The position numbers were made by a program, and so were the translations under genes. The notes beneath the pieces are model-generated. The model had not been told where the DNA came from. It saw nothing but the letters and a program-made list of their open reading frames with translations, and searched no databases. Positions 4,301 to 58,493 of a stretch of 64,000 bases of DNA are shown one piece after another. Position 1 is the stretch's first letter. Every line of letters starts with the position of its first letter. Source of the DNA: Nautilus pompilius (lineage: Eukaryota; Mollusca; Cephalopoda; Nautilida; Nautilidae); contig JACATO010000121.1 in NCBI GenBank assembly GCA_018389105.1, forward strand, positions 2,609,001 to 2,673,000, in the 5' to 3' direction.

Positions 4301-4839
4301 ATAATCCATATAAATCTGATATTATGAATGTTCCACATATCCATCCTTGATCATCTGTCTGATTTTGTCTTCTGTCTATGCTGCCCATTAAACCATTCAT
4401 CACATTTCATCTCCTTGCTCCTTGTTACATCATGATGCTTTACATGTGTTTACTTCCTGCACCTTACACTTTATAGGGAGGGTTTACAAAATTCAAAATG
4501 TCTGAGAAGTGCATTAGAAAAAAAAAAACAACATTTGACGGATTTTCTAGTGATTTTAGTAAAGATAGTTTACACTTGTATTTTTCTTCTGCCTTCCTAA
4601 TACAGTGTTAACCAGAAATCTGCGCCTATGTCAAAATATGTGATTGTAATTAGTAGTTAGGTGGGATGAGTAAAGGAAATAATTTTTGATTTAGCTGTAC
4701 ATGAAAATTTAATTGTATAGATGAATGATGCTACTTTACTAACTAGTTGGGAAAATAAAGTAAAAGAATGCATTAGAAATGTGTTATTTCTTTCTAGCAG
4801 TGTCAAATCCTAGTATGGGTAGGTAGCTTTATTACACTT

Positions 4840-5490
4840 ACTACATGTCAGACCTCATTGTGTCACTTCCTGACACTTGGTATGTCATATCCCATTATAT
4901 CACATTACTACTACTAGCACACATCAGATCTCACTGTATGGTTTTAATTACACCTAGCACATGCCAGATCCCTGTATATCACTTTACTTCACACAGTCTG
5001 TGTCAGATCTTGCTAAATCCCTTTACTACACCTAGCAGATGTCAGATCCCAGTATTATGGTTTACTGCAACTAGCACATGCCATGTCCCATTACACAACT
5101 TTACTGTATTACATGTTAGATCCTAATATATGGCTTTACTACACCTAGCACACACCAGATCCTAATAAATAGCTTTAGTATCTAGCACACATCAAGTCTT
5201 AATGTATGACTTTAGGATGGCTAGCACATGTCAAATCTCAATATATGGCTTTAGTATGCCTTGCACACATTAGGTCTCACTATATGGCTTTACTATGCCT
5301 AGCACATGTCAGATCCTAATATATGGCTTTAGTAGCCTATCACATGTCAGCTCTGCTATATGGCTTTTCTACACCTAGCACACCTCAGTTTTACTACAGG
5401 ACTTTGCTACACACCTAGCACATGTCAAATCTTATTACATTTATTTAGTTTACATGTCAGATCTCACTATGCAGCTTTACTACACCTAGC
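4840..5490. repeat. Degenerate minisatellite, unit about 40-50 bp
   Basis: About fourteen diverged copies of a unit resembling 'tagcacatgtcagatc' plus 'ctaatatatggctttact' with variable spacing. The + strand open frame at 4845-5126 is a by-product of the repeat and is not a gene. The array runs into a (CA)n tract at 5513-5532. Confidence 0.75.
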
Positions 5491-6537
5491 ATGTACATAC
5501 ATGCATGCACAAACACACACACACACACACACGTGCTTCAAGTGTGTGTCACTTTACCAGACAGGTAATGGTCAGAGCGGCACTCCTACAGCAGACCAAG
5601 TTAAAGATAACTTTTGGATAAGACCCAAATTTGACATTTCAAACCAAATTAGAAGAAACGTTTTCTGACAGACTTGATGTGGAATCCAAGATACATAGAG
5701 ATTCACAACTTGTCATCAGATGACTGAATGTCAATGACTAACAGGATCGCAGACGTTACTAGTCTCATGGTGGTTGGAACTCTCAATATGCATTAGTCGT
5801 ATCTAATTTCCTTTTTATTAACAAAATTTGTAAAATTGAAATTTTAAATATCCCATATAAATTAAAATTTTGCTGTAATCTAAGAAATGCATCAAAAGTT
5901 CAAAATGACAGCTGGTTTTATTTGATTTTTTTTTTTTTTACTCTAACCTGTGGCTGATTTTTATTCTCTACTTTACTGAGATGATATCACAGGGTACTGT
6001 AGTAGTTTGACTTGCTGATCCTTATGACTATAGACTGACTGCTGTTTCCTTGAACCTACTTTTATGTTGATTTTCTACCTGATATTTTAAAAATACATAA
6101 CAGCATTACATACATCTTGTCAACATGGAATTTGGGAATAAGATTTTTGTAGCTGAAGGAGGATTGTCAGGCATTTTCATGGGGATGGTGTGGGAGCTGT
6201 TGGTGATGCCTGTTTTTTTTTAGCCCCCCGTTTACCTTGCCTAAATATTAAGCTTTTGTGGGCAAATAATCAAGCAGCTCCAAGTTTGCTGGACATGGAA
6301 TAAGTTTAGAGGGATTTTTGTTTGGATGTTTTATTGATCAGAAGTTTAGAATACTGAGGCTGTTGTTAATCCCCCTACCCCCTTAATCCTGGGAATATGA
6401 ATTTTTTGTGCCTGGTGAATAAAGCCTATAAATAGAATGCCAATTAGTGCCAGATAAGGAGACTTTAGCTTAATCATTGCCAGAGGAGATGGAGAAATGT
6501 GGATAGGAGAGTCTATCAACAACAACTGCCCCATATG

Positions 6538-19000: not shown

Positions 19001-21464
19001 TTGCAGTATTATTTATTTAGGAAAAGCAAAAAAACCAGCACTCCCAAGCAGTCATTTGCTCTCTGTTCACTTTTACTACTGTCAGAAGTCAAGAAGTTTG
19101 CTTCATATGTTTCTCTTAAAGAATGGATATTTGAGCCATGCTTAGAAAAGAAGATTGAGAGCTTAACCACTGAGATATTGGGGTGTGAACAGTGGAGACT
19201 GGGAGAGGGGATAGCAGCTGACTATATTTAAGGTAAAAGGGGACTGGACTCAGAGGGTGGTAAGATATGTCAGCATCCAGATCTCTGAACCATGACAACT
19301 CAGCTCCCATTTCTTTCTGAAGGTATTCATGTCATCTGCAGACAATGAAGTAGAGGAAGAAAATTCCATTGCTCACAATCCTTTACATCACAGCTGACCT
19401 TATAGTTCAGGTGGCTTGCTAATGCAAATATACTCAGCAGGCAGAATCAGGATTTCAAACATCTAATGAATGACATTTGAAAGTTGTTCTGACCTAATGA
19501 AAACACATTAGCACTGTTAGCTTTTTAAAGATCTTTATTTTTCTTTAAAAAATGAGAATTTGAATTGGACTGATATATGTGCCAACATTCAGATAGAAGC
19601 CCTGGTGCATTTAGTTGTAGCTATGTAATTTTTGTGTGGTGGGATTAGGGAGATTTATGGTAGTATGTTTGTTTTGCTTTAATTTTGTATCGTCTACATG
19701 TAGACTTATCAGAAGTAGATGTACATTCCACCAACCCACTGTTTATCCATCCTCTCTATAGACAAATAAGCTTTCTGTGTAAAGACGTATTGATCGTAAA
19801 GGTATTTCTGCCTCACTGAGACTAAGGTTGGTTGTAAGTCTCTGTGTGTATTATTGTGATTTTTTGTTATTTTTCATTAACATCTCATTAACATAATTTT
19901 ATGTAGATAAATTCTAGTTATCTGTATACACAGCAGCCTTCATTCCTCATTCGTTATTTTCTTCTTTTTTTCTGGATAAAATGTGTATTTAGGGACTTGG
20001 AAGAAAATACGCGCCATCAATAGATTCTTTACTGTAAACCAAAAGTTTGGCAAACATTTTATTTATTAATGAAACTTTGTGGTCTTCCACAGTCTTTTGT
20101 ATGCTTAAGTATGCATTTCTAGAGGGTAAAATGCATACCTTGAGATTTTATTGTTTATAAGGGAGCAAAATTTATCTTTCATCACACCATACCTTGGAAT
20201 TCAGTTCAATTGGTTTTTGCTACACTTCAGACCATCCAAGCGAACACCAGGAATGAACCAATAAAAAAGCGGCTCCATTTAATGAATATATATGTATATT
20301 AAGTTTATATTTTTGTGATATCATTAAATCATTGCACAAAAGCCATGGCATCTGTTAGTGGAGTCAAAAGGGGGAGGGAATAAAAAAAGGCCACCCAGTT
20401 TGGCTTTTTTGCCTTTCATCTTCAAAGCAAACTCTCATTTTTATCTTTATATGTATTACAGGTGGATCTAGCAACACACCTGGTAAATTAGCTATATACA
20501 ATGTCTCAGCTTCATTAGGCATATGTCTTTATGGCACTTGGAGGAGATGAAGCAGTATCACAGTAGCAAGTACGATGATTTAAAAAATAAAACCGCATTT
20601 ATACTGATAGTCCCCTCCCTCTATAAATTAGTCTGAAAAAAAACCTTTAATTTTGTTTCATTTACATCTAGATGTCAGTTGTGTTTTTTTTTTTTTTTTT
20701 GTTTTGATAAATTTATTTTTCCTTACTGGAAAACCTATCAATTGGTATTTAACTTGTAGTGTGCACTCCAAACTAAACGGACTCCATTTGTAATTAGTGT
20801 TTACCAGAACCAACAAAAGGGTAATGTAGCACCGCTGTGATAGAGTCTATAAAGTCAGCCAGTCTTGCAATACACGGTAAAGAAGCAGAAGGCTGTGGCG
20901 AAAGGAAGAGAAAAAACAGATCGGCAGGCAGAAAGAGGAAGACTTGAGTGTTTTGTGTCTGTTCAATATGTTCTCGGCTCTGCTATTTTAAAGAACAGTT
21001 TATAACACCATAGTTGTTTAGATAAAAATTATTTCTGGTGTTAGCTCGGTTGGTCATTGGAGGAGCAAAGGGTTATTTCGCTTGCTGACTCGCAGGAGCG
21101 CAGATGTGTCCATAAAAATAAAGTGGTCCAAATAAATCAGTGCATCTAGCGTTCAACAACCAAACAACAAATAGGCCCTAAGTTTATGGATGTTGAAGTA
21201 CTATTGCACAACAAGTATCTTGGATGTTGGATGTTTCTTTGTGACCTTTACGTATCCATTGATTTTGTTTGAGTTAACCAGAAAACCCTCTGATATATTA
21301 CAAATGACACCTGCTTCTACGTAGTAGAATAAGAACCTTTAGTCTGCCATCACCCTACAATGTATGCATTCTAATTTCTATCGGCTTTATTGCATCTGTT
21401 AACAAAAAAAAAAAGAAAAAGAAAGTGAAAAACTTTTCCGTGTCTCAGATGTTTTGTAGGACTT

Positions 21465-21566
21465 GTGATGGATGCTGACAGAATTATCAATATGTATACG
21501 AAATGATGCTGCAGTGTGATGGATGCTGACAGAATTATCAATATGTATACGAAATGATGCTGCAGT
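21465..21566. repeat. Perfect 51-bp tandem duplication
   Basis: Two adjacent copies of a 51-bp unit starting gtgatggatgctgacagaat, at 21465-21515 and 21516-21566, with no differences seen. It lies 270 bp before the first recognised ptc exon. Confidence 0.92.
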
Positions 21567-26707: not shown

Positions 26708-29700
26708 CACGTGTGTGCATGTGCCCGCTGGATAATATTTCACTGTGTGGAGGCAGCTGATAATGGCCACTTCGGCCAAAGGCTGACCTTGTGGGGAGAG
26801 TGTAGTTTATATGGGGCTTGGCACCTTGTTTATATTAGCAGCCACCATTGATAACAGTTCTCTGAGGATTGTTTATGCAATAGGAAATGATTTCCTGTGG
26901 TAATTTATCTGGGGCCAAGTTGGCAAGAGGAAATAGGCTGGTAGCTAAGATGAAGGACCTGTGTATGTGTGATTGTTTATGCTGTGTTAGTGCCACTGAT
27001 ATTCTTTCCATCCCAGCTGATAAAAAAACCACATAATTAGAACCCAGTAAATTTGTAGGAACGCAGCAGGTTGAAGAGTTTTAAATTAGCCGCAGCAGTT
27101 TAACTTGCATTACAAGTTCCTTGACAACAGCCATTTCTAAATTTAGAAAGTGTACCTAAATTATTCAACTTGCTAATTATTTTCTTTTAAAATTATACTG
27201 TAATTTCTGATAGCTTTCTGTCCAGTACAGAAAATAAAGATACATGGAGTTTGTGTTTTATTTTCTTATTTTTAAGGCAGGTATATCAAGTGGATACCTG
27301 GAAAAACCTTGCCTCAATCCTGCTGACCCTGAGTGTCCCTTTTCTGCTCCCAACAGACTATCTAAGCAGGTAATTAAAGACAGGTATATAAGATAAAAAT
27401 TGCAAAGAGTCCAAATTAACAGTAGTATGGGACATCCAACTTATGTGCTTTTGTTATCTGAAACGACAACCAGATTTCGTCAGCAACATTCCTGTTTATA
27501 TTGTTTTTTAAAGTTGCCTGACGTTGGGGTGGAACTGACCAATGGCTGCACAGGATTTGCGGCCAAGTACATGCAGTGGCACGAAGACCTGATAGTGGGT
27601 GGTGTGCAGAAAAATAAAACTGGTTACATTGTAAAGTAAGTGGTTCTTCTGTTTCTCAACTGTGTGGTTTGGAAGAGAATGGGGCTTGGGTATTTCGTCT
27701 TGAGTGAGGTATTTCTGGAATCTTGCTTCTGTTGTGTTGAAATGCATGTGAAACAGGAGCTGAACATGCACTGCACTGCACTGTCCTCAGTTGTGCAAGT
27801 AAGTTTCTATTTTCTTTCTGGTTGACTATTGGGGTGATCTCCTGTAATGGGCAGTCTTCATGTTGTATCTGGATAGTTTTAATTCTTTATTAAAGAATGA
27901 TTCTGTATTTTTGTGCTTTTGGTTCTTTTTTTTTTTTTGTTGCCAGCTTCTTTTTTTTTTTTTGTGTTGCTGTTGGTGAGGTGATGCCCTGTGCTGGAAT
28001 TCATTGAGGCACTTTGTTTATTTAGTGAGTCTGCTCTTCTGTGTGGCAAGGCAACAGGACATCTAGAAGACAGAAGGCAGTGTTGGGTCTGTTGTTGATC
28101 ATTACTTCTGGCATCTTGGCTTCAACTGCCTCAGATAACTCTAGTTTTTTTCTAAAGAAGCCTCATGGTCTGCATTCAAAAGTCTACTGTATTTCATTTC
28201 TTGACATCCCAGGGCCGAGGCATTGCAGTCTATTGTCCAGCTGATGGGAGAGAAGGACATGTATGACTTCTACCAGGATAGGACCATAGTCCATAACATT
28301 GACTGGACTATGGACAAGGCAAAAGAGGTGTTGGAAACATGGCAGAGGAAATTCACCAAGGTAGGAAAACTTCACCAAAGTCTTTGAGGTCCAACAAAGG
28401 TGCAAGAAAATTTAATTGCACTATAAACAGGTTTAAAATTTGCATTACATCTACTTTTATAAACAATTTTTTGTAATAACACTAAAAAGGGAAATTTTTG
28501 AACATTTAAACAGAAGTGGGAACCTGTGGTCCATGACCAACCAGCCAAAAACAGACTGTGGAGGTGTTTAATTAGCAGGACTGTAAACTACATACACAGA
28601 ACACCAGTCCCTACAGACTATTTGTATATTAAGTTCATATATCACTGCACTGTGCATTGACATGAAGGACTTGTTTTTTTTTCTTCCTCTTACAGAAAGT
28701 GAACATGGTAATGGAAGGTGCTCATAAAAATGAAATTCATACATTTTCTTCCACATCATTAGCTGACATCATGAAGGATTTCTCCAATATTAGTGTTGTG
28801 AGAGTAGCTCTTGGATATGTTGTTATGGTAAGTGTGAACTTGTGATATAATTAGTAGACTTTTCTTTAAAGACTAAGTGTGATAGGCCTGTCTTATGTGT
28901 TATTACAATTGATCTTTAACATGGTCAGGACAGGTTGTCTTGTATAGAATATTCTGTGGTCTTAATTTGATTTCATATGATTGGTCTTATATGGAATGAT
29001 GGAGGTAGTCTTAAACAACAAAACAACTTATGATTTCAAAACTGATTTTAAAATTAAAATTTTTTTTGTGCCTTTCATGTTACCATAGCAACCATTAGAA
29101 ACAAAATTGTAAATAGATTATGAATGGAATTGTTTGCTATTTTAGTAAGCTATAAAACTGAACAGACAACACCATCTTTTGGAAGACTGTATGTAAAAAT
29201 AGACCATAGTCTTACCACCGCAAAACTGATCATAGTACTTGCTTTCCAGGTGTTCTATGCTTGCCTATCTTTGTTACGCTGCAACGATGCTGTAAACTCT
29301 CAGTGTGGGATTGGAGTTGTAGGTGTTGTGTTGGTCGGACTGTCTGTTGCTGCTGGACTTGGCATGTGTTCTGTTCTTGGCATCAAGTTTAATGCATCAA
29401 CTACACAGGTGTGTTTCTTTTAATGTTATTGTTATGTATAGGCAGTGAGCTTGCCCAATGCTGCCTGCCATTTACCTGTTTGTGTGGAAAAAGACAAGAA
29501 CAGTTCCCATGTGTGTTTTGCTCACTTTTTAAAACTCTTTCCCCCTAAAAACTTTGACTACACATTTAAACTGGTATTGTACTAAATAGCTGGGGTGGTG
29601 TGGTGTTAAATCTTGAAATTTATTCTTATGGTGGTGGTGTTTTTTTGTTTTGTTTCAATTTGTTTTGGTTTTGTGACAGCCACTGGATCCTCTTGTTTAC

Positions 29701-32700
29701 AGATTATTCCATTTCTAGCACTTGGTCTCGGAGTGGACGACATGTTCCTGATTGCACACACATATGCTGAGAATGCAAACAACTGCAACATACCATTTAT
29801 GGTAAGTTCAGCCAAACCAAATAAAGTTCTACTGATAATTTTATTAGACAGGGATGGTTTCTGATCGTGGGAACTTTTAAATCTCTGTCCCATAGAGTAT
29901 ACGTTTCTCATTCAGAAGAACAGGGAATAATTCCAGAAGGTTAATTGTGAAATTAATGTGACTGCCCAGCGTGTGAGCAAAGGATTTTTGGGATAGCAAC
30001 AGTGTGAAAAGGGTGCATGTGTACAATCCCTTGTTTACACCTGTTTTTCTATTAGATGCTGATGAGGAATGGGTGGATGTACACATTCTGTGAGTAACCT
30101 AGTTCCTCATTTACTCTGAGGTATAGTGTTGAGGATAAATAGTAAAAAAAAGAAGTAAAACTCTGCTGTGTTATTATCAGAGCAAAAGTTCAAGGATTGG
30201 GTTTTTTCTAGGCAGCTCAGTAGTCAAGGGAAACCTGATAGGTGCCCATTACTGGTAGGTCAGGAGGGGTTTGTTAGAGGCACCTGTTAGCTGTGGCCAC
30301 ACAGGACTTCTTTGCCACATGTGTTTATTAACTCTTTTAGTTACTCATACCATCCAAGAACTTGTCACTCCTAACACCGTATTGGAGTGATTTTATTTCA
30401 GAGAAGAGTCATCTTTTTTTTTTTTTTTTAATATGATGATGATAATCAGATTCTGAAATTTTAAAATTTTTTGTTCCTTTTGTTGAAACTTGTATGTTTC
30501 TATGTTAACCCTATTCAAAATGCATTAAAGACGGTTTGTATTTTTATTAATATCACAATGCATTCTGGCTTACACAGAGATAATTATTCATGAAACCCAC
30601 TTTGTGGTCTGATAGAACAAATTAAAAGTAAATTTTATGAAGAGCAAAAACCAGTGCTTGAATAGAATTAAATGCAACTATTTTTTTAAAAAATCGTATA
30701 TTATTAATATTCTTCACTAATTAAATTTTTTTATAATATTTACCTTTTTCATGCTGCCAGTTAAAAAGTAAGTTTTTATTGATGTGTTGATAAAGGAAAA
30801 TCAGATTTTTTTTCTTTTTTTTTTGAGTTTACATCGCACCTTATTTGTTGTCCTCTGTGAACTCGTTGAGTTCTGTTCATCTCAGCCTTTCCTTACTCCA
30901 CCATGATGGAGAAGAATCAGTTGCTATTTGCACTTTATTTTGTTTACTTCAGTCGTTATAAACTGGTGAAAGTAGTTAGAAGGCCAAATGAAGAAAGCCT
31001 TTTAGTGTTTTTGCTATTTAAAATATCTTTCTTCCTTATACTTAGTCAAATTCTGTCTGTACTTCTAATAATTTGTATTTTATGTAGTAAATTTTACAAG
31101 AATATTTAAAGTAGTCTGCATGTCTTTATGCGTGCATACTTAAGAAACAAAAACATTCTTTTAAAGATATTATTGTGTGTGCAATTTTTTAAAAATTGAA
31201 ATATACTATATGCCTAATATCTGTAGTATATCTATTTTATAGCTGTTTTTTTCTGCTTTTTTTATGTTTATGAAAAACTAAAAACTTATTTTATATGGCC
31301 TAAATATAATTTTTGTTTTATTGTTGTTTTTTTTTTTGTTTTTGTATCTTTTAATTGACACCTGTTTTGCTGGTGCTTTTAGTTGTTCAGTGTTCTGTTC
31401 TTGTTGCAAACCTTATTCTGGTTTTTTTTACAATCTGTTTTAACCAAGTGGCTAGTTGCCGGTATGCTGCTTTGTCTTACCACTGACCTGTCCAATGCTA
31501 TTGTTTGTACTCGACTATAGTAAAATTGATATTGAAAACCAAGTATGGAAATTTGGAGAAGTATTTAGATAGCTTTTGGATGTGTGTGATTAAATATAAT
31601 GTGGAAGGATCTTGCTTAATATCATTATTACCTGTGGATTTTATTTTATCTTAATTCCATTATAGTCAGCAAAATAAGACATTTAGAATAAAAACCAGGC
31701 TCTGTTCTTTTCAGTGGATAGATGTAAATTGAAGGAAAAAAAAAGGAAGAAAACAAGCTTAATTAATGCTGAAAAACTCTTTGGATTTTTATATTAATAT
31801 CCAAAATTTAACAGGGTTGTTGGGTATTCAAGTTTACATTGTATTTTAAAAGAGGAGCATAATGTAACCATGGTTCTGATATTCTAGCTCTTTCTCAATG
31901 GTTAGCTGCCTTTCCAATTCCCTTCACTGTAAGCTGTCGTCTGTCTTACCTTCAGTCTCTCTTTCTGTCTCTCTCTCTCTCTCTCTCTGTTTTTAGGACC
32001 AGACAGGGGAATGTTTAAGGAGGACAGGAGTCAGTGTCATGTTAACATCTGTCAGCAACATCATGGCTTTTCTGGCAGCAGCCATCATTCCAATACCTGC
32101 ATTACGAGCTTTCTCCTTACAGGTGAGCCCTCCAGTTCCATAATTCTCCAGCAGACAGACAGACATTTGTGCAATCATAATAAATGTCTAGAAATTTTAG
32201 CTGAGATGTATGGCTATTATTTTTGTTGTTTAGTTTATACCAAACCAAGGGCAGCTTATACAAGGGTCCCAGGTTCTGCGACTGATTGACCCTCTGATTA
32301 CAAACAGATTTTGCTGGTGGTTTGTCCTACTTAATGAGAATTTCTTCCTGTGGTTTGCACTCATGACTACAGCTAACAATCAATGAAGCAGTAATCGTCA
32401 CTTCTCAGCCAAGCTCCAAAACCTAAAAGCCCGAATCTACATATGAAGAATTTAATTCCCATCTATTTACAGATCATTTCTTTAAAACAATACTTTTTAA
32501 TATTGATTTTTACTTTATATTTAACCAACTTAAAAATGTTTTGACCATTTCTGCCCATGAAGTCTAATAAGTCATTCACTTCTGTGTCTGTACAGGATGT
32601 TCCTAATGAGACATAAACAAAGTCTTCCTTATACACGGATACCAATAAGTCTTTAGTTCAGGATATTTTTTGTCTTTTTAAGATTGTGACTGAAGATTTG

Positions 32701-34356
32701 GTTTTACTAAAGCTGTAGAGTTCACCAGAATAGAAGTCTTATTGATTTCTGGTTTACATGTTTTTTTAAAAAGTCAATGATTGAAGACATGAAGCCAACA
32801 TGCTACCTTCTCCACAGGCAAGCATAGCACGAAGCTGAATTGGCTATTCGGAGGCGAGGAGCACTTTTTGCCTTTGGCCTGCCTGTCTGGCTAGGAAGGT
32901 TAGGTGCGTCGAGACCGGTTTCGGACTTGATGTGCTGAGGCCTTTTTTCCCAAGATTGGTTTTTGGCTGGGGAAACGGTCACTCTAACAGGGGGCATTTG
33001 TGCCCCCAACCCTGGCTGCTGAGGCGGCCAGTTACACAAGGTGCTTCGGCGCCTCAACCCGGCCTTTTAGGCCTTAACGGGAGCTTGCTCCACACTGGGT
33101 TTCGGCCCCTACACGGCTTCGGCCACCACCCCCACTCCCTTCTCTTCGGAGATACACACGCACCACTTACGCATTCACCACAAAAAGATAAATAAAAAAA
33201 AAATTTGTTGCTTCCATTTTCTGCTTGCCTTCAGTATCTTTTTCACCGTTTCATCTTTTCCCAGCTGTGGTGGTGGTTGCAGATAAAGAGCATGTTGACA
33301 TTATCCCTACATGCTTGTTGGAAGCAGAAATCTGCAATTAAATTGAAGTAGAAATATGAAAATTATCTAATTTGTAGTATGGTAAACTATGGCTTTCATA
33401 AAAGATGTCTTTTTTTAGAAATGTCAGTTTGTTTTTACCTATATCTTTGCAGACGATACGATTTATTCTGACTGGGTTAGATAGGGTTAGTGTGTGTTTG
33501 CCTACTAGTGGGGAGAGGTTTCCCTACCCCTGAAGAATTTGGCAGTCAAGTTGATTACTGAAGCTCTTAAGGTTCAACAAATACATAACAGGCTACTACA
33601 TTTTTTTGGTGAAGTTGTTAGTAGTAATAAGAGTTTTGAAAAAAAGAAAAAAATTACATGTTGTATCTAATTTTCTTAAAAAAGTATTGAAACACAGTTT
33701 ATTCTGTTGGGCCTCAGAGGAGTTGGTTACAGAAATGTCATAATTGACAGAATATTACTTAGATGTAATGGATAAAGACACGGACTGTTCTATTCCTGGC
33801 TTTTCTTCATCCAGCACCAGACAGGCATTTTTTTCTGTATTTACTTTTCTGGTATTATATACCCCTTATCAGATATTCTACAACAACTGTTCTGCGAGCT
33901 GACAAATTACCAGTGGCTCCAGTCAATAGCCGTGTGGTCTTAACAGAATGTCGATCTTCTTTCAGCAGTGTCTTTTGCCAAGAACATATATACACACACA
34001 TTTTTATGTATGCACACACACACACACTTAACACACACCATTAATGTTTCACTTGGTGTAATAGAAAAAAATTCTAAAGTTATTTCTTTATATGATTAAA
34101 ACCTTAAGTTGATCTGATCTGACCTTGTGGTGCCTGTCTGCCTATCAGTCAGTTAGCAAGCAGACCACACAGAAAACTCTATCTTGGGCTCTCTGTTGGT
34201 GGCCCTCATACCGCGCAAGTCCTTTTGCCCCCCCCCTCTCCATCCATCTTAGCTGACGGGTTTTTTGTTGTTTTTACCTTTTGTTTTTCCTCCCTTTTTC
34301 TTTACCACATTTTTAGCTGCTTTCTAGCCTCTTATAATTGGATAGATCATCTCTCT

Positions 34357-37300: not shown

Positions 37301-40300
37301 CAGTGTATATACCAGAATCTGGAAGAGGAGCAATGTTTGGTTAGCCTCTAATGATATCAAGTATGAAGCCATTTTGCCCTTGGAGAGTTGTAGCTTTAAA
37401 AGTTAATAAGAAATGACTGGAAGAGGAGCAATGTTTGGTTAGCCTCTAATGATATCAAGTATGAAGCCATTTTGCCCTTGGAGAGTTGTAGCTTTAAAAG
37501 TTAATAAGAAATGACTGGAAGAGGAGCAATGTTTGGTTAGCCTCTAATGATATCAAGTATGAAGCCATTTTGCCCTTGGAGAGTTGTAGCTTTAAAAGTT
37601 AAAAAAAAAATGAGTGTGAAACTGGTCTAAAATCTAGGTGGTTCTTTCACAGTTTGCTTAGTTCACTTGATCTCACAACATAGAGAAGGTTATTTATAAA
37701 GATTTGTCCATTGGTTGGTTCTTGGGCCTGATATTGTGACATTTGCTCAGTCGAATATAGTGGTGGACAGAAGTTTAAGAATGAACCAAACATGCTTGAA
37801 ATTTGGTTACAAAAACCAAATTTTTTAGAGATTACATGTGATAAACAGATCAAGGCAGTGTTAATATCTGGTCACATGGCCATAAACATCAATCAGAGCC
37901 TGATAGTATTTAAGCATGGAATCCACAAAACAAATATTGGCCCAAGTTGACTGAATAATTTAGAAAAATTTATCCCTTTTGGGGGGGTTAATATGATAGC
38001 TCTGTCTGTGTTGTTCCATAAGTTCACTGTTGAATTCAAATTGTGGGTTTTGAGCTGGTCACTTCAGAACTGGAATTCCCTGATCTGAGAGAGATGCTGC
38101 TTAATGATTGCAGCTGAATCTTTTCAACATCATTTTCATGTTGGAAAATTCATTTGTGAGGGATGTAGTCTTCAGAATATAGTTCAGCTATATTGACCAC
38201 AGTGTCCAGATAAACAAACCAAATTCATTAATCACTGGATATGAGGAATAGGGCCTGCTCCCTTTTGGGAGAAACAGTCACAGACAGCCCTTAATGGACC
38301 CATCCCCACCTTTTTGATCATCAATTTGGTACACCTTGGATGAAAGGCTTCACTGAATCTCTGCCGCACATAAGTCAAACCATTTGATCCAAATCTCTGG
38401 AACCATGATTCATCAGAGCAGAGCACCTTGGTTCACATTTCTGCAGTTCAGTGGAGATGGTCTTTGGCAAACTAAAGTTAAGCCTTGAATTCTTCAAGGA
38501 AACAAAGTGTTTCTCCCTGGCAGCACACCTCATCACTTTGGAATCACAAAGCTGTGTCTTGGCAGTTCTTGTAGAGATTGGTAGGTCCTCCAAATCTCTT
38601 TTAAAATGTCAACACATGCCCTGTGCCAGTCCTTTTGGACAGACTCTTGATTTTCTGATTAGTCCAAGCAGCAGTTTTATGGAGTCTGCCACTTTTATGC
38701 TGTTCAATTAGTCCCCTGTTTGTTCATCCAGGCCAGAATAAACTGTCCTTTTTTACTCATTGTGGAATGCTAAAAATGTTTTGCATTAGTTTACCACATT
38801 CTATTGGTTGCTTGATAGAAACACAAATATAAGCAATTGACGTTAACATTCTTTAACTTTTATCACCATGAAATTTCGCGATGATGTAAGAAAAGCAAGT
38901 GTATGTAAAATATTTACTATTGGTCACATTGATGTATATGTCATTCAAAAAGAACAAGAAATGAAATTGCTTTTCTATCAGTGCAGTGCCCATGCTTGAA
39001 TGTTTATTTTTGCATATTTAACCCGTCAGTTTATGTTTATTCTGCCATGCTGTTGTTCTTAAACTTTTGTCTGCCACTGTACATATATATATACCAGTAA
39101 TGAAAAGGTTTCATCCCAAAAAGAGAAATTCTATTTTGATAATATATTTGATTAATTTTTTTGTTTTTTATTTTGGACAGCAAATCGTTCTGTGGGGGCT
39201 TATATAAGATCCCTGAATTACTAATCATTTTTATCAATTCAGTTAGTTTGCTGAATTATCAATGAAAATAAATAGCAGAAACTACAAATTTTAAAAGTAA
39301 CTTTATATTCATAAAACTCTCACTCCATACATTTTTTTTCACTTAACTTTTACCTTCATTAGTTTTTTTTTAATTTACAAAATGTCACATCTGACAGAAA
39401 AAAGAAATTACCATTTTATATGAAAAAACTGCCATAGTTTTATTTAAAAATGCAAATTTTGTTTACATTTGTGCAGTTTGTACTTCTGATAGAGTATTTT
39501 ACTAGTCAAGGGAAGCAACTCTATATTACATAATATATTTGTTTTTTTTTAGTTTAATAAAAATTGAATTGCTTTTTCAACAAAAAAATTTCAAATAAGT
39601 AGATTAGAGATTGAGATAAATAATAAATAACTGTAAATATTATTTTCTCTTAACTGTAATAATAAAATAATTTAGTTATTAATTTCATATTTGTCTATAA
39701 TGTCAAATTATCCATGGAACCTTATAAGCATGTTATATATGTTTGTTGGTGTCATATGATAAACCATTATTTTGTTGAGTACCCAGTAATTTCACTGACT
39801 TAAAAAGGACTTTTCTACCTCTATCCTTATAGATCTTCAAAAAGCCTTTGATCATGATGTTGAGATGGGCTATATACATAAAGATGGCTGGATCAATAAT
39901 GCATCAGATGATGGTATCCTGGCATATCGACTCCTTGTTCAAACTGGAGATGTGGATAAACCTATTGATAGGTCACAGGTAAAGAAAGCATACAAGTGGA
40001 TTCTATGTTATCGTATATAAAAATAAAATTAAAGGGGAGAAATGTAGCTGATGAAAATGTCGTGTGATCAGGCTTGTGTACCAACCAATAAGATATTTTC
40101 TTTCAAACTGCAGGAAGCTAGTAATTTGGTCAAATTAACAGTAACTGTTGTTAGCAAGTAGTACTCATCAAAGGGCAGGTAAGGATTAAAAAATGTTTTT
40201 TTATCTATATATTTGTGAATAAACAATAAAATAGGTAAACAGAGAGAGAAAAATGGTTTGATTATGATTGATAGTCAAAGCAAACAAAATAATTGGTTCA

Positions 40301-55784: not shown

Positions 55785-58493
55785 TTACAGTTTCACTTTC
55801 CTGGCCTTCTTTGCTGCAAAGTCCTCTGTGACATTGTCATATGAAATATGATTTGCAACCTCATGGTTGATACTGATTACAGCCAGACCGCTGAGGCATT
55901 CCTGAGACATTACTGACCTGAGGTAGGTTTTGATGAGCTGCTCTCTTTTGAAGAAACTGTAACTGGTAGAGTCACAGCATTCCTGAGAGAAACCCACAAG
56001 TTTGGGTAAATTTCAGAGAGCTGCTTTTCCTGTATGAATTTCAGCAACTCTAGAGCGGTCAAGCTGGTTGATGGAAAGTCAGGTAGGTTTCTCAACTCCT
56101 GAGCAAGCTCCCTTCTATCCAAATCAGGCTGTCCTTCACAACTTAAGGTGCAAGGTGTGTTCAAGGGCCTCTGCTTCTGCTATCAGCTCTTGATGAGGAA
56201 GACTTTGGAAGGTTGACAGGAAACCAAACTTATTTTCCACATCTCCAAGACTCTGAAATCTCTCCTTCAGAGCTATGATAGCAACATTCACAACCATGTT
56301 AAAGAAGGTCACCTCCAGATTTTTCAGGGCATCATGCACTGGTTCATCGGGAGACTCATATGAAAAGTGCCTCTTTGTAGACCTCAGCTTGTTTTTTGTA
56401 AGTACTGCCTCCACATTCATTTCTTCACACATGTCTTTGGCTGAGTTTTGTGCGGCCACAAAGCCTGTGGCTGTGTAGTTTTGAAGAGCATCCTCAGCCT
56501 TTTTCTGCAGGCTGACTGCTACATCCATTGCCATTGTTTTTCACTGCATGACTTTGTTCACATGTTGTATTTCACTCAAGATTTCGTATCAGGTAACTAC
56601 ACGGAGTGAAAATTTGAAGAGCTCACCACCTCTGCCAGGAACTGGGCCTCAACCTTTATGACCGGGTCTTTGGTTTGGTGCTTCACCTCAAGCAGTGCCT
56701 CTCTCACTGCTGATGCCTCAAATCGGAGAGGTTCGATAGCCTTCACTCTGCTCTCCCATCTTGTCTCTGTCATATGTCTTGCAAGGATGGTCCGTCAATG
56801 TGCAGATACTGAAAACAACGAATATAGCTTCTGCAGGATCCCAAAAAATCCTATGGCATCTTTAGAGCTTTTGGCTGCATCAGCAATGACCAGGTTAAGG
56901 GTATGAGCCCCACAAGGAACAAACAGAGCCTTGGGATTTTTCTGCAGTAGCTTGGCCTGTGCTCCTTTGTTTTTTCCCCTCATGGTTGCACCATTGTCAT
57001 CATCATAGGAAATCTGCAAATCCTGCAGCTTCTGCAAAATTAAGGTGCCCAGATTTTGCCCAGTGGACTTCTCTGCTTCTAGAAATCCCATGAAGTGCAC
57101 TTTTATCTGTGGGTTGTCTTCCAGTGTCACAATTCGAATCAACACGGACAGTTGCTCTGTGACTCACATCTCGGGTGCAATCCAAAATAACTGAAAAGTA
57201 TTTGGATTGCTTTATCTCCTGTACCATTGTTTTCACCACCTTTGATTTGATGAACTCAATGATCTCATTTTGAATGTGCTTGCCCAAATAGCTCATGTGT
57301 GAGGACTCACTGTGAACTCTATGGACACGATCTTTCATAACAGGATCAAATTTTGCCAAAAGCTCTACCACTTTCAAAAAGTTTCCATTTGAAGGAGAAT
57401 ACAGTTTTTCTGTGTCACCTCTAATTGCCATATTCCTAGCTGCTAGGAAATATACAATGGCAATTAACTGTGTCAGCACTGCTCTCCACCTCTTCCTCTC
57501 ATCATCAAGTAGGGCCATCTCTTGTTTGTCAATGGTTGCACCTGTCTTGAGCCTAAACTCAAACTCTTTCCATGATGCCATGTGCATGAAATGATCAGGA
57601 CTGCTCTCATGGGAACTCGGCAGAGCTGTTGCATTTTTACAATTGGTCAAGCCTCCATGTATTAAATGAATGCTCTTTGAGGAGAAGAGTTTGCAACAAA
57701 AACAAAAAAGGCTGTTGTTTTCATGTGAATACACTAACCAGTTTCTTTTAACTTTCTCACCATTTATTAAAGTTCTGGAAAAGTATAAATGGTGGCAACT
57801 TCTTGCGTCTTCTCTTTTTGGAAACATAAAATCCCTTGGTACCTGATACGGTTCTCTCTGCACTATTTCAGTTCTTAAATGGTCAGATAGTTGTGATGAC
57901 CAGTCAGCAGATCAAATGGACATGGTTCATCTGTCACAATCTTAGTTGGTAGGGCAGAGCAGGATGTTTCTTGTGGAGTTTCTTCTGTGTCTGCAAGGCA
58001 CATACAGACAGTATTTAGCAATTTAATTATTATTGTTCCAAGAAATTCATACATGGAAGCACATCACAACATTTTCAGTTATTCATAACTTAAGTCGAGT
58101 AGTATTTATTAAATCTGCTGATCTCAGTTGTGTCATCAAAAAATTAAATATATATATATATATATATATGGATGGCACATTTCATTATATACATTATTAA
58201 ATAGTTGCTCACCTGAGACAATAGGAACAATTGAGGAGGAAGTGCTTGCCCCTTCATCAGTTTTTCAATTGGAATCAAGGTATTTTAAAAGCGCATCTAA
58301 AATGATAAATAAAAGAACTGTAAAATGCACCTACAAATATTCTGTTTCATGATATTAATGGCTCATTGTTTACTGCATAAAATGGGGGGAAAAACAAGAT
58401 ATAGTATAATCATTGGCTACCTTTGTTTTGATTGCTCCTCTCTTCTTTCCATTGTTTTCGATACTGGGCACCTGATGGCTTTTGCTTCTTCAT
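55785..58493 (-). pseudogene. ZMYM1-like/TTF zinc-finger hAT transposase, frameshifted
   Basis: The probable start at 58493 encodes MKKQKPSGAQYRKQWKEE, the usual N-terminus of this family. A donor GTAG at 58420, a small exon at 58213-58296 and an acceptor at 57991 suggest two introns. The main part (57863 down) has FPKREDARSCHHLYF and CFCCKLFS (TTF-type zinc finger), then YFSVILDCTRDVSH (the DUF4371 start of the RNase-H-like region). After 57145 the frame shifts to a stretch with SYDDDNGATMRGKNKG and CGAHTLNLVIADAA. Further shifts occur near 56800, 56540, 56150 and 55990. The end has QLIKTYLRSVMSQECLSGLA, the hAT dimerisation region. It is inactive as it stands. Confidence 0.88.

Follow-up and report, generated by a model that had tools for sequence, protein, structure and literature searches.

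The hairpin-rich block studied here is most probably (we would give it roughly three chances in four) a decayed, 5'-truncated short interspersed element (SINE) of a family with a variant-U2 snRNA head and a hairpin-bearing 3' part, whose RNA would be made from the U2 promoter and copied by LINEs that insert into U2 genes. It lies in a 64,000-nucleotide stretch of Nautilus pompilius DNA (contig JACATO010000121.1, positions 2,609,001 to 2,673,000; hereafter the window). The family is dispersed, 5'-truncated and A-tailed, is flanked by target duplications in part of its copies, and is biased towards insertion at (G)G[CT]T^AAG.

An initial annotation had described window positions 32803–33195 as a chain of hairpins in an intronic block. 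Direct reading finds all eight consecutive hairpins within 32990–33152 where they had been placed, the four TTCG motifs at 33045, 33101, 33118 and 33145, and the terminal ATAAATA followed by A10; the 5' bound has to be moved, as the repeat begins at 32849 and the first 46 bases (32803–32848) are therefore flank. By sequence match the copy occupies 32849–33203 on the plus strand, from approximately consensus position 172 to the A-tail, and is a shortened member of an abundant, hairpin-rich SINE-like element with a full length of ~540 nt. It contains, all on the plus strand, runs of T5 (32865–32869), T6 (32943–32948) and T5 (32960–32964), followed by hairpin 1 (GGGGGCATTTGTGCCCCC, 32990–33007), hairpin 2 (33012–33031), hairpin 3 (33038–33055, TTCG loop, with the outermost base pair disrupted here), hairpin 4 (GGCCTTTTAGGCC, 33061–33073), hairpin 5 (GGAGCTTGCTCC, 33080–33091), hairpin 6 (33097–33108, short stem), hairpin 7 (33115–33124, 3-bp stem, TTCG loop) and hairpin 8 (33141–33152, TTCG loop), and lastly an AC-rich stretch and A-rich tail (CACCACAAAAAGATAAATA plus A10, 33153–33203). 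The stems that carry the TTCG motifs at 33101 and 33118 had been called short, and as drawn those at 33097 and 33115 have only 3 bp. Upstream on the same strand lie TTGGCT (32840–32845), which matches the preferred target half-site, and ATT (32846–32848, read directly), which with its partner at 33203–33205 is a possible 3-base target duplication but a doubtful one because it is so short; the insertion junction reads ATTGGCT^ATT|CGGAGG. The orientation is that of ptc, as annotated, on the same strand as the Patched exon at 29610–29864, and the copy is probably a passenger inside the ptc intron.

Elsewhere, the window contains a diverged 39-bp tandem array (4827–5491), a perfect 51-bp tandem duplication (21464–21566), three copies of a 98-bp tandem unit that are 98% alike (37319–37609), and a 302-aa open frame on the minus strand (57003–57911) with a sub-threshold DUF4371 match (5.4e-5), perhaps a transposase-derived gene.

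Searching the genome (727,640,739 bases in 2,558 contigs, 727.6 Mb) identified at least 40 places belonging to the family, as all 40 that were scored, the best of 1,140 first-look candidates, were matches: the window itself and 39 others at 84–92% identity. In 35 of those 39 the match sets in at query base 60 or 61 (window 32849–32850). A single-copy block would have told against the proposed SINE-like family; the block is multicopy. We fetched 73 copies, the 39 from this search plus 34 matching a 145-base 5' query, the latter being enriched for full-length copies since they were picked by their 5' part. All 73 fit one 545-nt consensus (last nine bases A) at 84.6–96.5% identity, with a mean of 90.9%, although divergence is underestimated as both sets comprise the best-scoring copies. 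The 5' end is defined, lying at or before consensus position 16 in 34/73 copies, with the remainder scattered down to position 196; full-length copies start with GGCTAAGATCAAGGCGAGG and end with CACCACAAAAAGAT and an A-rich tail. There is no long open reading frame in the sense direction, the longest reaching at most 110 codons in the near-complete copy L029 and 119 in L105, a relative of 68.6% identity with a U2 head. The element is therefore short, non-coding, dispersed and A-tailed with a defined 5' end, as SINEs generally are, and as far as tested the suggestion of an undescribed SINE-like family holds (multicopy, 5'-truncated, A-tailed, some copies with target duplications, without a long sense frame). 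Alignments to 5S and U1 were no better than shuffles, no Rfam family reached its threshold for the element, no tRNA was matched within the window, no phage or plasmid match was found, and one 25-base stretch looked for in viruses gave 0 exact hits.

The truncated copies reveal a preferred target, (G)G[CT]T^AAG. Among their junction stretches (26 bases immediately upstream of the element and four within it), [CT]TAAG is present in 19/38 compared to 11/266 control stretches (Fisher 1.3e-12), GCTAAG in 8/38 compared to 1/266 (Fisher 2.4e-7) and GGCTAA in 6/38 compared to 2/266, the controls being seven same-length upstream stretches per copy, which are mutually not fully independent. In full-length copies the motif is weaker (9/34 vs 17/237 control stretches). 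T^AAG is also found in 9 of the 11 copies whose target duplication was judged to abut both ends of the element (L010, L013, L014, L018, L023, L030, L043, L047 and L079), the other two (L024 and L031) lying in A-rich tracts. These eleven comprise ten of the 22 repeats returned by an automatic finder plus L023, added by eye; the 12 uncounted repeats were mostly set aside because they do not abut the junctions, and most copies carry no clear target duplication.

U2 snRNA contains GGCTAAGATC, which resembles this target. Neither this likeness nor the snRNA-derived head, nor the presence of LINEs inside U2 genes, could be seen from the window. Two canonical U2 genes are present in the genome (L082 and L083, 187.8 bits each), lying in inverted orientation ~2.4 kb apart, together with a variant U2 gene (L084) in which CTTCTCTGG replaces CTTTTGG. 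Fuller relatives of the SINE carry as their head up to the first 32–39 nt of the variant U2 snRNA. In dispersed heads the identity to L084 is 37/39 (L105), 36/39 (L103), 34/38 (L110), 31/35 (L100), 30/34 (L106), 23/24 (L094) and 22/23 (L097). All seven of these heads score higher with the variant than with canonical U2, at 21–35 compared to no more than 15 for shuffles. Behind them, the bodies of L094, L097, L105, L106 and L110 match the SINE consensus and that of L103 resembles the L106 body (73% over 124, 7e-21), while L100 has no body match to the SINE.

A pattern for the variant U2 head (up to 3 mismatches) found 70 places, and its reversed control 0. We read 30 of the 70, which comprise 12 with a U2 promoter and LINE-like leader, one variant U2 gene and 17 dispersed heads; ten of the latter are additional to the seven above, seven of these with SINE bodies (L129–L135; L130 and L131 have identical flanks and perhaps represent one event) and three without. 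Thus 13 of the dispersed heads are followed by SINE bodies and four were not shown to have one (L100, L128, L136 and L137); the heads of these four, on non-matching bodies, perhaps belong to other U2-headed families. In L103, L105, L110 and L129 the alignment begins at U2 nucleotide 1, the transcription start, and the sequence upstream is unrelated. Canonical U2 heads on the SINE were sought with up to two mismatches, giving 0 matches. Alignment of the whole element to U2 is not significant (16/200 shuffles are as good), and the case for U2 is made by the head alignments and the SINE bodies behind them. The main subfamily also starts in a U2-like way, which we interpret from its sequence as a remnant of the variant-U2 head. 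At the 5' junction of L016 a U2 head (GGCCTTCTCTGGCT) is seemingly joined straight to SINE position 65, possibly by template switching.

Variant U2 genes in turn carry insertions at GGCT^AAGATC; the inserted elements are LINEs that encode an L1-type endonuclease and reverse transcriptase, with the Tx1/Keno clade as a candidate placement. On the 5' side, 27 of the 70 head-pattern places continue with GATCTTTG rather than GATCAAAG, and the 12 promoter-bearing places, all among the first 20 read, pass from U2 promoter to LINE-like leader, 11 of them with long frames downstream; some of these carry a CCHC motif, and in L099 and L113 an endonuclease frame begins. On the 3' side, the pattern A5-GATCAAAGTGTAGTATCTG with up to two mismatches found 93 places reading A(n)GATCAAAGTG (reversed control 0), some of which lie in large contigs and are possibly dispersed fragments; of the ten that were read, two go on into U2, seven lead into different sequence and one (L115) looks like a dispersed fragment. 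The implied target duplication is AAGATC, nt 23–28 of canonical U2. Contig C437 has a LINE flanked by two U2 remnants at a distance of 5.9 kb from each other, a copy that is incomplete at its 5' side as it shows no U2 promoter and head there. Its ORF2 is open for 1193 aa, and 988 aa of it match LINE-1 ORF2 over 892 residues, from residue 13 (3.8e-76), with RVT_1 (1.7e-33) and N-terminal Exo_endo_phos (6.4e-11) domains, and zf-RVT (1.6e-9) in the next piece. A 218-aa piece of ORF2 has at least 150 matches in the genome (150 of 150 scored, the best of 2,111 candidates).

At the leader places (L095, L096, L099, L101, L102, L104, L107–L109 and L111–L113, around base 1500) the U2 start is followed by a short leader, which at several of them has a splice-donor-like GGTAAGTG/GGTAGGTG, as if the mRNAs of these LINEs started at the U2 start site and were spliced. 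In L116–L119 and L122–L124 (around base 1500) the A-tail and GATCAAAGTGTAGTATCTG are followed by mutually alike non-U2 sequence, which is perhaps the 5' end of the next LINE, in a tail-to-head arrangement.

The SINE head appears to receive insertions in turn. Eleven of the 73 copies have their first base at consensus position 5 (at or close to AAGATC), eight of them directly behind an A-run or the tail of another element (L040, L048, L049, L053, L064, L066, L073 and L076), and in L053, L066 and L073 the preceding element is another SINE. The head thus looks like a landing pad, since an element inserted into it at GGCT^AAGATC would leave such junctions, but the A-runs before position 5 could instead be A-rich targets, for example in L049. 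In L040, L048 and L064 the SINE lies behind the end of another kind of repeat, one found ahead of a U2 fragment (L090) as well; this repeat, which ends near AAATTTAAATAAAATTTCTTTGAACC in front of the SINE heads and the fragment alike, is probably a third element that inserts at this site.

The usual explanation of SINEs invokes a Pol III promoter within the head, consisting of A and B boxes with no internal stop. The consensus departs from this arrangement: it has internal runs of T5, T6 and T5 (at least two runs of T5 or longer are kept in 66 of the 71 long copies counted out of 73), at which Pol III would be expected to stop, neither it nor L105 has an A box, and there is one B-box-like 9-mer at its head. 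From the internal T5–T6 runs and the lack of an A box we infer use of the Pol II promoter of U2, and a start at U2 nt 1 under that promoter would be the simplest alternative. None of the 30 head places read has a SINE behind a U2 promoter, and a U2 promoter is upstream of 0/17 dispersed heads (by eye, with promoter-like scores of 6–9 vs 29 for L084).

Among the 3' ends compared, those of the SINE and the U2 LINEs have only the A-tail in common, with no significant similarity. In a profile test (10 real ends, 1,000 shuffles) the highest-scoring real end came eighth, the profile being weak as one of its six sequences had been trimmed to 10 bases, and in pairwise comparisons the scores of three of 12 ends were reached by 5–8 of 200 shuffles and those of the other nine by 59–179. 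Because the 3' ends are not alike beyond chance, the proposal that these LINEs move the SINE rests on the common target and the A-tail. This leaves room for a U2-headed SINE moved by an unrelated L1-like LINE that prefers T^AAG, the likeness of the target to U2 being coincidental: T^AAG followed by an A-tail differs only modestly from common L1-type targets, and GG precedes CT at only part of the sites, as the GGCTAA counts indicate. We nevertheless consider this unlikely, given the excess of GCTAAG at the junctions, the nested insertions at GGCT^AAGATC within SINE heads, and the fact that the U2 LINEs share that site.

A still less probable reading makes the block a LINE 3' end, the hairpins its 3' UTR and the copies truncated LINE ends. 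Truncation at the 5' side and A-tails are LINE-like, and by eye the 3' ends of the U2 LINEs also contain inverted repeats and an AC-rich stretch; against this, the 34 copies that begin at positions 1–16 differ in the sequence upstream, U2 heads sit directly before the body, and the SINE consensus matches only SINE-bodied loci and no U2-LINE locus examined.

Such regularly spaced stable hairpins had not been expected by chance. In the window copy the predicted folding is only moderately better than that of dinucleotide shuffles, with z -2.16 for the hairpin stretch (7/200 as good) and -2.34 for the whole 393-base block (2/100 as good). The predicted fold of this copy retains hairpins 1–4 and 8 as drawn, whereas hairpin 5 is absent from the minimum-energy structure and the bases of 6 and 7 are paired otherwise. 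The near-complete L029 is much more stably folded than its shuffles (z -4.67, 0/100 as good), as is L105 (z -4.73, 0/100). The covariation check that had been suggested gives no signal within the main subfamily, and between subfamilies there are both-side changes in some stems. In an alignment of 67 copies plus the window (L054, L059, L064, L066, L074 and L075 were left out as incomplete there), pairing in the eight hairpins does not exceed that obtained once the partners are reshuffled: 375 cells are paired in hairpin 1, where the shuffles average 370.5 and reach at most 378, and hairpins 2–8 are within 3 of their respective means. The changes on both sides of hairpin 1, from G-C to A-T, can be CpG decay, and a lack of covariation is expected within a subfamily because copies decay after insertion.

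Among relatives at ~65–75% identity, both-side changes are found at hairpin 3 pair 4 (L105), hairpin 2 pair 5 (L015b), hairpin 6 pair 2 (L105, L110, L015b and L035b) and hairpin 4 pair 3 (L105, L106, L110 and L035b), in a hand alignment of no more than eight sequences, without statistical test, in which hairpin 4 of L105 and L110 was positioned by judgement. Broken pairs also occur: hairpin 3 has two in L035b and one each in L015b and the window copy, and hairpins 2, 4 and 6 contain several. As the alignment was made by hand, we regard the both-side changes as supporting, without proving, that hairpins are maintained in the source RNA. That the chain is an independent structured RNA, or one co-opted by the host (for example in ptc pre-mRNA), is very improbable, since for all the strong folding of the whole element and the both-side changes between subfamilies, copies within the subfamily decay without covariation, the window copy already has a damaged hairpin 3, and in the aligned copies the hairpins are always part of the larger element.

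Returning to the U2-headed SINE, its mobility could be accounted for as follows. Pol II would make the SINE RNA from the U2 promoter, and a U2-type LINE would nick GGCT^AAGATC-like sites and copy that RNA by target-primed reverse transcription. The RNA end, ...AAAAAGAU, may pair with the nicked ATCTT-3' end, and the hairpins may stabilise the RNA or be recognised by the reverse transcriptase.

More tentatively, and at somewhat less than even odds, we suggest that U2 genes in this genome support two tiers of parasites. L1-type LINEs would insert at GGCT^AAGATC and be driven by the U2 promoter, running from the U2 start through a short leader and a splice-donor-like site to ORF1, while the hairpin-rich SINE would be expressed from the same Pol II snRNA start, its U2 head serving as a landing pad for further LINEs and SINEs. 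If so, this would be a class of SINE with no need for a Pol III promoter, and a large family that combines a head from a Pol II-transcribed snRNA with Pol III stops in its interior and head-like targets would offer another route to mobility for short RNAs. The link between head origin and insertion site would also become directly testable.

SINEs with snRNA-derived heads reportedly form the SINEU group of Kojima (2015). The element described here likewise appears from its sequence to be an snRNA-headed SINE, a non-autonomous element headed by snRNA-gene sequence and thus of a kind already known; it would be set apart by a head from a genome-specific variant U2 and by targets resembling that head. 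The class name SINEU appears in PMC5753468. Novelty is judged within the literature searched (including parts of PMC4640811, PMC5753468, PMC7245038 and PMC10886601), among whose listed papers there was no SINE of such a kind. Among the sections covered of PMC4640811 (2015), section 8 describes the Ciona repeats U2_sat and YURE, which are U2-derived and host LINEs, as U2-derived sequences do here, but a SINE goes unmentioned in that section. Keno and Utopia are the only U2 transposons that section 11 names. Utopia LINEs likewise lie inside U2 genes, and some families, their specificity weakened, land at U2-like sites; however Utopia has a restriction-like endonuclease and a 3' U2 flank from nt 39 (in Phytophthora), whereas the U2 LINEs here have no such replacement of the APE domain, their endonuclease being APE-type, and their 3' flank starts from about nt 23–25 (PMC4640811). 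Keno shares with them both the U2 target and an APE-like endonuclease, and its 3' U2 flank is the same as that of Utopia (PMC4640811). The site used here, with a flank beginning AAGATC/GATC, therefore differs from that of Keno and Utopia on the sections cited, and the U2 LINEs of this genome add a second U2 site for APE-type LINEs.
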